A DNA stretch of 64,000 nucleotides from Sandaracinaceae bacterium (GTDB taxonomy: Bacteria; Myxococcota_A; Polyangia; Polyangiales; Sandaracinaceae). Where the stretch lies: positions 186,001-250,000 of the forward strand of contig JAVJQK010000050.1 of NCBI GenBank assembly GCA_040218145.1, written 5' to 3'. The notes beneath the pieces were generated by a model that did not search any database, had not been told where the DNA came from, and saw only the letters and a program-made list of their open reading frames with translations. The position numbers and the translations under genes were made by a program. The first letter of the stretch is position 1. Each line of letters begins with the position of its first letter. Below, one piece after another: positions 13,787-25,468 of the stretch.

Positions 13787-14014
13787 ACCCGATCGTACGG
13801 CTCACTCCCCGCGCATGTTCCCGCCCCCCGCCGACGGTAGAATCGGCCGGGTCAGCCGCACTTCATCCCACCCCAGTCGCGCCCCGAGGCGCCACAACGA
13901 AGCGCCGCAGCGAGAGTCGCGGTCAAAGCCTCGGTCCGAGGACCACGGGAGAGTCTGACGCCGCCGAGCGAGGCGCCGCGAGGTAGCGAAGCGACCCCCA
14001 GCTTTCGCGGCGCG

Positions 14015-14220
14015 AGCGCAGCAAGACGGTTTCCATCGCGCCAAGAGCGGCGTGCTTTCGCGAAGCGAAAGCGCGAGCCGCCGGGGCCCCAGCGCCCCGC
14101 GGCTGGGTTCGCGTCGCGAGAGCAGCGAAGCGGTCTCCGTCCCGCCAGGGCGGCCAGCGAGCGCGAAGCGCGAGCGCGAGCCGCGGGGGCCCCAGCGCCC
14201 CGCGCTGGGGTCGGCGCCCA
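14015..14220. repeat. two degenerate tandem units of about 103 bases
   Basis: Each unit carries a piece like AGCAGCGAAGCGG, then GCGCGAGCCG and GGGGCCCCAGCGCCCCGC. The two copies are offset by about 103 bases and differ at scattered positions. Confidence 0.7.
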
Positions 14221-22233: not shown

Positions 22234-23007
22234 GTGGGACGAGGCCGGAGCAGATGCGCGCAGGTGGCGCGAGGGATCGGCCTCGGGGCGCTCCCCGTCT
22301 TCGCGCTCCTCTTGTCGTCGAGCGCCTCGGCGCAGACGACCGAAGGCACCTCTCAGCCCGTCGTCACCCTCGTCACGATCGGCGCCCTGACCCTCCTGCC
22401 GTTCGTCTTCATGACCACCACGAGCTTCGTGAAGATCGCGGTGGTCTTCTCGATCCTGCGCAACGCGCTCGGCACGGGGCAGGTCCCGAGCGGCACGGTG
22501 ATCGCGGCGCTCGCGGCGATCCTGACCCTCTACGTGATGGCCCCGGTGGGCGAGCAGATCGCCGACGAGGCGGGCCCGACCGCGGCGCGCGTCGATCCAC
22601 ACGATCCCCTGTCCGACTTCGAGGCGCTGGGCGAGGCGGTGAGCGCGGGGCTCGTCCCGCTGAAGTCATTCCTCTCGCGCAACGCGGGCGCGCGCGAGCG
22701 CGAGCTGTTCTTCGATCTCGCGCAGCGCGCGCGCCCCGCCGACCAGCGGGACCGGGTGAGCGAGGACGACCTGCTCGTGCTCCTGCCGAGCTTCCTCATC
22801 ACGGAGCTGGGCGAGGCGTTCCAGATCGGCTTCCTCGTCTTCCTCCCCTTCCTCGTCGTCGACCTCGTGGTGAGCAACGTGCTGATGTCCCTCGGCATGC
22901 ACATGCTCTCGCCCACCCAGGTCAGCATGCCCTTCAAGCTCCTGCTCTTCGTCCTCGTCGACGGCTGGTATCTGCTCGCCAGAGCGCTCGTGCTCGGATA
23001 CGCATAG
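22234..23007 (+). CDS. SctR/FliP family type III export protein, orphan
   Basis: A 257-residue export-gate protein. Diagnostic segments are TSFVKIAVVFSILRNALG, ELGEAFQIGFLVFLPFLVVD and MLSPTQVSMPFKLLLFVLVD; the N-terminus is a cleavable signal peptide ending SSASAQ. SctR/FliP forms the entry portal of type III secretion and flagellar export with SctS and SctT (FliQ, FliR). None of these partners is in the window. The MLSPTQVS wording leans to SctR rather than FliP. Start GTG 22234 is chosen because GATGCT ends 8 bases upstream. It follows the dehydrogenase by 34 bases. Confidence 0.85.
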   Translation: MGRGRSRCAQVARGIGLGALPVFALLLSSSASAQTTEGTSQPVVTLVTIGALTLLPFVFMTTTSFVKIAVVFSILRNALGTGQVPSGTVIAALAAILTLYVMAPVGEQIADEAGPTAARVDPHDPLSDFEALGEAVSAGLVPLKSFLSRNAGARERELFFDLAQRARPADQRDRVSEDDLLVLLPSFLITELGEAFQIGFLVFLPFLVVDLVVSNVLMSLGMHMLSPTQVSMPFKLLLFVLVDGWYLLARALVLGYA

Positions 23008-23021
23008 TCAAGTCGCATCCT

Positions 23022-23555
23022 TTGCCTCCCCTCGAACCCGCTATCGTCGCCCTCCTCGACGGGAACGTACCGACGGCCGCCTGGTTAGCCTCGAGCCAGG
23101 CGGAGTCGCTCCTGAGTGACCCGCGCCGCCGCGCCCGCCTGTACGCGGAGATGCACGTCCGTCCGTCGCCCGCGCAGGCTCCGCTGCTGCGCGTCCTGCT
23201 GAGGCACGAGGTCGATCAGCGGCTGAAGGACGACGACGACTACGACTTCGAGCAGCTCTACTGGTGCGCGCTGCTCCTGTCGGCCTTCGGCTTCGTCGAG
23301 GACTCCTTGCGGATCTGGCGCGCGAAGCGGACGAACTTCGACACCGGTGTCGGGCTCGACGTGCAGTTCGTCGTCGGCGCCGGAGCTCGCGAGACGCTGG
23401 CTCACCTCGACTCCCTCGACGACCCCGAGGCCGCGCGAGCGGCGCGCTACCTGAGGGACTGCGAAGCGGCGGGGGACTTCGCGGATCTCGAGAGGTGGCG
23501 CGCTCTTCGGTGCGCCTACTTCGCACCCGCGGCTGCTCGGGGGCGGGCGCCGTGA
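23022..23555 (+). CDS. conserved hypothetical protein, 177 aa
   Basis: A soluble alpha-helical protein. The stretch LYWCALLLSAFGFVEDSLRI and WRAKRTNFDTGVGLDVQFVV looks like a conserved hypothetical family in which a WRAK-x-TNFDT signature is typical; no function is known to me. It begins 14 bases after the export protein. The only in-frame start that keeps the conserved part is TTG 23022, with no Shine-Dalgarno, so the start is uncertain. Codon use is normal for the window. Confidence 0.65.
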   Translation: MPPLEPAIVALLDGNVPTAAWLASSQAESLLSDPRRRARLYAEMHVRPSPAQAPLLRVLLRHEVDQRLKDDDDYDFEQLYWCALLLSAFGFVEDSLRIWRAKRTNFDTGVGLDVQFVVGAGARETLAHLDSLDDPEAARAARYLRDCEAAGDFADLERWRALRCAYFAPAAARGRAP

Positions 23556-23592
23556 TGGCCATGTCCTCCTCGAGCAGACCTACCCTCGACCG

Positions 23593-23700
23593 ACGAGGTG
23601 AAACCAGCGCCGAGAGGGTGTTCACCCTGTGATGACTGGTCGAAACCAGGGTCGCGAGGGTGTTCACCCTCTCCCGATTGGTCGAAACCAACGCGGAGGG
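23593..23700. repeat. 42-bp tandem repeat, about 2.5 copies, hairpin-forming
   Basis: GAAACCA recurs at 23600, 23642 and 23684, exactly 42 bases apart. Each unit holds AGGGTGTTCACCCT (perfect hairpin at 23615-23628 and 23656-23671) and a second hairpin, CTGGTCGAAACCAG at 23636-23649 and TTGGTCGAAACCAA at 23678-23691, where the outer pair C-G becomes T-A. The third unit is degenerate. Confidence 0.9.
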
Positions 23701-23759
23701 GGGGTGGCTCGCCCCGCGATCCTCGGCACGAGCCCAAGCGAACGTCGTGGGCGGTGTCG

Positions 23760-23765
23760 TAGGCT
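23760..23765 (+). promoter_or_regulatory. -10 box (leaderless) for the gene at 23774
   Basis: TAGGCT ends 8 bases before ATG 23774, with no Shine-Dalgarno. Confidence 0.5.
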
Positions 23766-23773
23766 GAAGCGGC

Positions 23774-24442
23774 ATGACCTACCGAGATGACCGGCAAGCG
23801 CTGAAGGACCGGATCGCCGAGCTCGAGCGGCAGGCGGCGGGGGCGGTCTCGAAAGAGGAGCTCGAGGGGCTGCAGCGCGAGCTGCTCGAGGCGCGCGCGC
23901 GCATGGACGAGGACCGGGAGGCGCTCGAGCGGCTGCTCGCGCGGCTCGACGGCAAGCTCCCCGCGCCTCGCAAGGGGGTGACGGTCCGCGTCGCGCTGGT
24001 CACCCTCGGTTTGCTGGTCGCGGCGGGCGCGATCGTGGCCACGGGCGTCTCGCTCCTCGCCCGCGAGAAGGTGCCCGTGGTGGAGACCGCGCGCGGGCTG
24101 CCCAGCGCCCATCGCGTGGCCCCGGCCCGGGTGGAGATCGACACCGAGGTCGAAGCCCGCATGCCCACGCTCGACGGCTGCCTGCCCGAGGGGCGTCACG
24201 CGCGCATCCAGGCGCAGCTGCTCTTCCAGGGGCTCGATGGCGCCGTGCACGACGTGGAGCTGTGGAACGTCTCGGAGCACGACGGCTACCCGGCGCAGAC
24301 CGTCGATTGCCTGCGGGACGCGTTCTCGTCCCTGCGGGTGCCGCCGTTCCGGAGCGCGACGTACCGCTATCAGCTCACGCTCGAGTGGACCGGTGAGGGC
24401 CTGGCGCGCCCGCCGATCTGGGATCGGCACGCGCGCGACTGA
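23774..24442 (+). CDS. single-helix membrane protein with coiled coil
   Basis: A 222-residue protein: an N-terminal coiled coil (about residues 5-62, LKDRIAELERQAAGAVSKEE and similar heptads), one membrane helix (about 69-95, VRVALVTLGLLVAAGAIVA) and a C-terminal outer domain with two cysteines (GCLPEGRHARIQAQLLFQG; VDCLRDAFSSLRVPPF). The C-terminal part resembles the TonB/AgmX-like domain often found in myxobacterial envelope proteins, but I am not sure. It is preceded by the 42-bp repeats and converges on the M29-like gene. Confidence 0.7.
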   Translation: MTYRDDRQALKDRIAELERQAAGAVSKEELEGLQRELLEARARMDEDREALERLLARLDGKLPAPRKGVTVRVALVTLGLLVAAGAIVATGVSLLAREKVPVVETARGLPSAHRVAPARVEIDTEVEARMPTLDGCLPEGRHARIQAQLLFQGLDGAVHDVELWNVSEHDGYPAQTVDCLRDAFSSLRVPPFRSATYRYQLTLEWTGEGLARPPIWDRHARD

Positions 24443-24451
24443 TAGACGGGG

Positions 24452-25468
24452 TCAGCGGAAGAGATCGACCTCGGCCGCGAGCGCCTCCGCGTGCCGGCCC
24501 TGCTCGACGAGCGCCGTCTCGCCCGCGCGCACGTCGAGGCGCCGCCCGAAGAGGCGCAGCTGGATGGGGCACTGGTACGGCGCGCGCGTGGCGCGGTGAT
24601 GCGAGAAGCCGAGGATGATGTTCAGGCCCGGCAAGAGCGCGTCCTGCACCTCGAGGCGCGTCTCCGAGCGGATCACGTAGTTGGTGGGGAAGGCGACGAT
24701 GCCGACGCGCGTGGCGTCTGCGTGCTGCTCGGCGTACTCGCGCGCCATGGCCGCGATGTCGTCGTCGGTGCTCTCGAAGCGCACGGCGCGCCCGCGCTCG
24801 AGGTGGACGTGGAGAGGGTGCCGGCGGAGCTCGGCCGGGTCGGGGCGGATGGCGCCGAGCGCCCCGCGGTCGGCCACGAACACGCCGTCCACCGTCGCCG
24901 GGTGGAAGAGCACGCTCCCCGACGGGAGGTTGTCGGGGTTGCCGGGGCTCGGGCGCCCATCCGAGCTGAGGAGCGGGTAACGCGAGGAGACGCCGATGTG
25001 CACGTCGGTGCCCGCGGGGCTGGTGGCGTGCAGGCTGCCGGCGGCCTCGATCGCCTCCACCACGCGCGCGTTGAGCTTCGCGATGCGCAGCGGATCGGCG
25101 CGGTAGGACTGGCTGAAGAGGCGCTCGTCGATGCGGGTCAGGTGCAGGTGTCGGAGCTTCGCGCGGGACGCGACGGCGAGCACGGCCATCGAGAGCGCGG
25201 GCGGGATCCCGTGCTCGGCGCAGAGGATGGACGCGACGGCGCCGTCGAGCCGGTCGGCGAGGGCGCGGGTGGCGTCCGCCTCGCTCGATCGGGCGAGATC
25301 ACGCGCGTCGACCTCGACGGGCTCGCCCCCCGCGCGCCGGACGGCGTCACGGAAGATGGTCCGGAACCGCGCCGCTTCCCACTCGAAGAGGGCGACGCGC
25401 TCTCCCTGCTTCACCTGCAAGACGTGCTGGACGACGTTGTCGGCGCCTCGGCGCAGCTTCTCGGACAC
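24452..25468 (-). CDS. M29 aminopeptidase-like protein
   Basis: A 338-residue protein with the overall pattern of thermophilic aminopeptidase AmpT/AmpS (peptidase family M29): an N-terminal domain (VQHVLQVKQGERVALFEWEA), then NLPSGSVLFHPATVDGVFVA and GLNIILGFSHHRATRAPYQC. Family M29 enzymes are dinuclear-metal exopeptidases in which the Glu of NLPTEEV is a metal ligand; here that spot reads Ser/Gly, so activity is doubtful or different. It has no signal peptide. The start is GTG 25468 with TATCCT ending 7 bases upstream. Confidence 0.7.
   Translation of the reverse strand: MSEKLRRGADNVVQHVLQVKQGERVALFEWEAARFRTIFRDAVRRAGGEPVEVDARDLARSSEADATRALADRLDGAVASILCAEHGIPPALSMAVLAVASRAKLRHLHLTRIDERLFSQSYRADPLRIAKLNARVVEAIEAAGSLHATSPAGTDVHIGVSSRYPLLSSDGRPSPGNPDNLPSGSVLFHPATVDGVFVADRGALGAIRPDPAELRRHPLHVHLERGRAVRFESTDDDIAAMAREYAEQHADATRVGIVAFPTNYVIRSETRLEVQDALLPGLNIILGFSHHRATRAPYQCPIQLRLFGRRLDVRAGETALVEQGRHAEALAAEVDLFR

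Follow-up and report, generated by a model that had tools for sequence, protein, structure and literature searches.

Palindromes that lie two helical turns apart near a promoter are known from tandem operators in helical phase. Among intergenic repeats, BIMEs and REP clusters are described, as far as the retrieved text of the two articles goes, as regularly spaced, alternating intergenic palindromes that are tandemly repeated and form hairpins (PMC2817692; PMC3733652), and the same portion of the latter article places REPs mainly between unidirectional and convergent ORFs (PMC3733652). The array analysed here stands in a 218-bp intergenic gap, between an ORF end at 23555 and the start of a 222-aa gene at 23774, in the 11.06-Mb genome of a marine uncultured myxobacterium; the positions refer to the window, the whole 64,000-nt stretch of DNA that was analysed (G000:C50:186001-250000). 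In this array, palindromes GGTGTTCACC and GGTCGAAACC alternate, with four intact palindromes and a 42-bp unit at 23615-23691. It thus has the intergenic palindromes, regular spacing, alternation and tandem repetition of BIMEs and REP clusters, but it differs from them in lacking a high copy number (one locus per 11.06 Mb), in having no GTAG or CGTC tag beside its four intact palindromes, in its half-unit of 21 bp, and in that the class of arrays discussed below has no preference for gene ends, the array itself lying between co-directional genes. With bacterial minisatellites (VNTRs) it shares a tandem and non-coding nature, 2.5-3 copies and a period of 42, whereas its unit holds two alternating palindromes with conserved cores; copy number was the same in the single comparison possible, with one other genome of the species. 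As in tandem operators, the palindromes lie two helical turns apart near a candidate promoter, but here two different palindromes alternate, and no regulator or second target is known. A literature search by sequence and phrase, including the retrieved parts of PMC2817692, PMC3733652, PMC5010890 and PMC3696898, found no description of such arrays, and the retrieved text of PMC3733652 has no word that starts with Sorangium, Myxococc or Deltaproteobacteria.

The array is real, non-coding and a sequence orphan. The original prediction of a 42-bp tandem repeat with two palindromes per unit was borne out by TRF (23600-23702, period 42, 2.5 copies, 77% matches) and by the centres of the four intact palindromes, which are spaced by 21.0, 21.0 and 21.0 bp, and shuffled sequences do not reproduce it: the pattern GGTnnnnACC-N11-GGTnnnnACC (at most one mismatch) occurs three times in the window versus a mean of 0.10 in 100 dinucleotide shuffles, none of which reached three, and the longest exact-period chain in the window is four versus at most two across 200 mononucleotide shuffles of the window. 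Half-units of 21 bp begin at 23575, 23596, 23617, 23638, 23659 and 23680, and the last four bear the palindromes; the predicted end at 23700 was right, but the start, placed at 23593, extends back to about 23575 via two degenerate half-units (Table 1). The two 42-nt copies are 81% identical, with AGGGTGTTCACCCT at 23615-23628 and 23657-23670 and GGTCGAAACC at 23638-23647 and 23680-23689. Both centres and arms of the palindromes are conserved between copies, and the cores are identical at 20 of 20 positions versus 11 of 22 in the linkers (Fisher p 2e-4), a comparison that is partly circular, as conservation drew attention to the cores. The array also forms an overall inverted repeat centred on palindrome A1 (arms 23612-23628 and 23657-23673, 88%). 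A CRISPR array had already been dismissed in the original prediction, and we agree: unique spacers are absent, the repeats abut at 42 bp, and the linkers are diverged copies. A coding repeat, namely a 14-residue peptide repeat on the minus strand, was likewise rejected, since all six frames over the array score non-coding, and tblastn of this peptide against 377 genomes of the phylum returned its own locus and three weak matches with E above 0.07.

Table 1. Features of the array and its surroundings (window positions).
Feature	Position	Strand	Basis
Whole array, three 42-bp units, two intact	23575..23700	.	Period and half-unit register; non-coding in six frames
Degenerate first 42-bp unit, half-units 23575-23595 and 23596-23616 (second retains GAAACC)	23575..23616	.	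Half-unit register; 2 mismatches to triple pattern at 23596
Palindrome B1 AGGGTGTTCACCCT, centre 23621.5	23615..23628	.	
Palindrome A1 CTGGTCGAAACCAG, centre 23642.5	23636..23649	.	
Palindrome B2 GAGGGTGTTCACCCTC, centre 23663.5	23656..23671	.	
Palindrome A2 TTGGTCGAAACCAA, centre 23684.5, carries the sole two-sided pair change	23678..23691	.	
Type III secretion export apparatus protein, SctR/FliP family	22234..23007	+	Pfam FliP 1.3e-63; NCBIfam SctR TIGR01102 232.9 bits, cut-off 208.6
Upstream ORF of unknown function, stop 19 nt before array	23151..23555	+	Frame open from 23007, start uncertain; no Pfam/NCBIfam match
Candidate -10 box TAGGCT of leaderless promoter, offset -14 from start codon of 222-aa gene	23760..23765	+	TANNNT enrichment
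222-aa coiled-coil / one-TM membrane protein of unknown function	23774..24442	+	

The membrane-protein gene expected directly downstream was found 74 nt past the array end, and this gene and the upstream ORF have full-length matches in two of ten family genomes, the own one and that of the same species. The sctR/fliP-like gene further upstream scores over the SctR and under the FliP cut-off, and a leucine/glutamate-dehydrogenase-like gene adjoins it. Of the -10 box predicted ahead of the membrane-protein gene, TAGGCT fits an enrichment of TANNNT in the own genome, but a sigma-70 consensus scan gave no promoter match at the locus. Before predicted start codons, TANNNT clusters at a distance of 12-15 nt (54 occurrences in these four positions among 688 starts, versus about 2 per position elsewhere), which suggests that leaderless transcription is frequent in this lineage. 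As the array sits upstream of a likely leaderless promoter, a role as a 5' UTR element is improbable, and if the 222-aa gene is leaderless, the array could be transcribed only from the upstream side or antisense. No intrinsic terminator (a G+C-rich hairpin followed by a T-run) was detected in 23000-24500.

The original prediction looked to further copies in the genome and in relatives and named their absence as grounds for refutation; in terms of sequence this absence was confirmed, with no copy outside the species among the 183 genomes of the order. The paired motif, searched exactly and with two mismatches in the whole 11.06-Mb genome, occurs at this locus only. A looser triple pattern with three mismatches matched 34 forward places versus 5 for the reversed control; four of these are the array itself, and inspection by eye revealed no further array among the others. 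Order-wide, the sequence was present in 2 of 183 genomes, the own genome and one of the same species, in which the array has the same copy number and no differences in 126 bp; as the two genomes are 99.2% identical over 8000 bp, about one difference would be expected, so that this lack of differences hardly counts. A sctR/fliP homologue is present in ten of ten family genomes, and in the eight of other species no similar array was found in the 1500 bp behind the best homologue. A wide paired-motif scan returned 25 contig stretches, one from the same species and 24 without an array within 60 bp on either side (by eye); two Nodosilinea matches with the right spacing were rejected, as they are not arrays. 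Viral scans gave one, zero and zero stretches, the single match being no array, and a search of plasmids and phages gave none. The reversed control motif was found in 5 of 56 genomes and the motif in just 2 of 56, so that GGTnnnnACC itself is not special.

The architecture does recur, as spacing and not as sequence. When 1.18 Mb of the own genome were scanned for hairpins at even spacing, two chains of four came up, one being the array itself and the other having a period of 45, along with twelve chains of three, including a period-21 chain at C50:78444; five shuffles produced 16 chains of three but no chain of four. This period-21 chain is part of an array, here called A2 (G000:C50:78190-78600), made up of roughly ten units of 42-43 bp with CTTCGCGAAG and GGTGGTTCGGAACTACC in alternation, and a sequence relative of it, A3, lies at C104:164389-164924 of the same genome; the spacing of both drifts between 42 and 43, and a second chain scan that allowed drift missed both. 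Array A2 matches nine of 377 genomes, including a 74% match in a genome of another family (G159), and the seven beyond this and the own genome, one of them of the same family, have matches of 25-59 bp. A census covering 0.4 Mb of G159 in addition to 1.96 Mb of the own genome yielded 34 non-coding tandem arrays with a period of at least 20 bp, of which 11 had a period of 41-43 bp and 4 one of 21-22 bp (15 of 34). Its rows depend on one another in part (A2 is a relative of A3, A3 and one G159 region contribute two rows each, and the G159 arrays L221a, L221b, L224 and L229 are interrelated), and its G159 stretches include the region around the A2-like match and are not a random sample. A control of 500 kb from two other GC-rich replicons contained eight arrays with periods of 21, 24, 27, 36 or 39 and none at 41-43. 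The census arrays at 41-43 or 21-22 bp are mostly of unrelated sequence, and under half are clearly palindromic. Hairpin content exceeded that of shuffles (p<0.05) in four of ten tested units of 41-44 bp, most strongly in our array (p 0.005), and the sequence similarity between it and other arrays fell short of significance (13 comparisons, best p 0.046). A statistic of unit symmetry gave only a weak signal, with one of 11 arrays of 41-43 bp, again ours, at p<=0.01, and a median z of 1.2 for the 41-43-bp arrays versus 0.1 for other non-coding arrays. No dispersed intergenic word common to the arrays was found, and in base autocorrelation over the whole of the intergenic DNA, periodicity of 3 and 6 bases drowned out any other signal. 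Of 16 arrays examined, the 13 with both neighbours predicted have six tandem, five divergent and two convergent flanks (190, 126 and 28 for intergenic gaps overall in the sample from the own genome), and this mixed orientation indicates that the class is confined strictly neither to 3' ends nor to promoters.

The original prediction read the exchange of CTGGT for TTGGT as compensatory, which would point to a structured RNA element maintained by paired changes. The reading of the letters is correct, as between the copies of palindrome A a single outer pair is changed on both sides, from C-G to T-A. As evidence for an RNA element, however, covariation fails: compensatory changes amount to this one pair against one counter-example, the outer pair of palindrome B, which is G-C in one copy and a broken G.G in the other, and the arrays A2 and A3 are at the shuffled level (score 0.050 versus 0.048; 16 of about 22 units, 15 distinct), with almost invariant stems and no two-sided change. 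One pair in A2/A3 is G.U, G-C or A-U and fits RNA on that strand, but not above chance. The 116 nt of the array do fold well as RNA on both strands (-57.3 and -50.5 kcal/mol, z -4.01 and -3.96, with none of 200 shuffles as good), which should be expected of an alternating palindrome array; taken singly, the hairpins have little stability as single-stranded DNA (-3.1 to -4.8 kcal/mol in six stretches). Rfam gave no match on the array, save one below threshold outside it, and only sub-threshold, chance-like matches on array A2. We therefore consider a structured RNA very improbable.

That A2 and A3 lack RNA covariation would also suit an operator or enhancer array, in which one DNA-binding dimer, or two in alternation, would occupy palindromes on one helix face, two turns apart and 74-178 bp upstream of the leaderless start, and would control the 222-aa gene. 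The exact two-turn spacing, the conservation of palindrome centres and arms, and the likely promoter just downstream all argue for it, but AGGGTGTTCACCCT has no exact copy elsewhere in the genome, 23 of its 26 near matches (at most two mismatches, 24 further loci) lie in predicted genes, the A2/A3 spacing drifts, and two of 13 arrays stand between convergent genes, so that we regard such control as unlikely. A drifting minisatellite without function, made by palindrome-assisted replication slippage, is a doubtful but somewhat better candidate; it would account for the restriction to the species and absence behind the sctR/fliP homologues of eight other family genomes, for the already degenerate first unit and for arrays without orientation preference, and what speaks against it is the contrast between cores and linkers and, hardly counting, the unchanged copy number and sequence in the second genome. 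Both are close rivals of the explanation that we tentatively prefer, namely that the array is a palindromic minisatellite resembling BIMEs, one instance of a non-coding array type that recurs in these genomes, and that it probably acts, if at all, as a hairpin spacer. Its exact spacing, non-coding nature, RNA folding and conserved cores, and the other arrays of like period, are consistent with this; the missing sequence relative in the genome, the non-significant similarity to the other arrays, the lack of a concentration of the class at gene 3' ends, the missing T-run and the hairpin excess in no more than four of ten tested units count against it, and as there is no sequence relative in the genome, the array does not belong to a dispersed BIME family. 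According to the BIME-like model, the array would have arisen by tandem amplification of a palindromic seed of about 21 bp, in the spacer that separates two genes of like orientation; its palindromic cores would have been kept while linkers drift, and it would be a small case of a kind that recurs in these myxobacterial genomes, with a 21-22-bp half-unit and a 41-43-bp unit. A transcript from the side of the upstream sctR-ORF may then fold the array into hairpins, which, if functional, could serve as a 3'-end barrier or attenuator that parts the upstream transcript from the next gene's own promoter.

Taken alone, the array is a small intergenic repeat, and it matters because it pointed the way to other non-coding arrays with a period of about 43 bp; this recurrent period is the part worth following. 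It is a rather improbable idea that in these myxobacterial genomes some non-coding arrays form a class marked by their spacing and not by their sequence, with palindromes or repeats every 21-22 bp, a unit of 42-43 bp and array-specific sequence. If so, either something would read the geometry, be it a structure-specific nucleoid protein or a fixed-step hairpin-driven amplification, or each array would have its own cognate binder, and if the spacing is the conserved trait, it would allow helical-phase constraint on repeat DNA to be tested.

Several other repeats were seen along the way. One further genome (G047) contains two arrays of 21-bp period with GGTCTTGACC palindromes, and in G159 four non-coding arrays of 21-22 or 43 bp (L221a, L221b, L224 and L229) are related among themselves and form a dispersed tandem family. 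A palindrome-rich repeat with GCGGCCAGCGAGCGCGAAGCGAAAGCGCGAGCCGC-like and GGGGCCCCAGCGCC-like stretches occurs in the window at 14004-14213 and again at L108 10776-11093 and L214 13841-14020; recurring in the own genome, it is possibly a dispersed REP-like element. On contig C104 of the own genome, a large non-coding array (L219 13815-15449) consists of units of about 25 bp, GGCTCACCCACGTGGGGGTCGACGA, with a CACGTG palindrome, and in the intergenic DNA of this genome, words of the TATCGTCATATCGTC type and AAATGCTT are over-represented.
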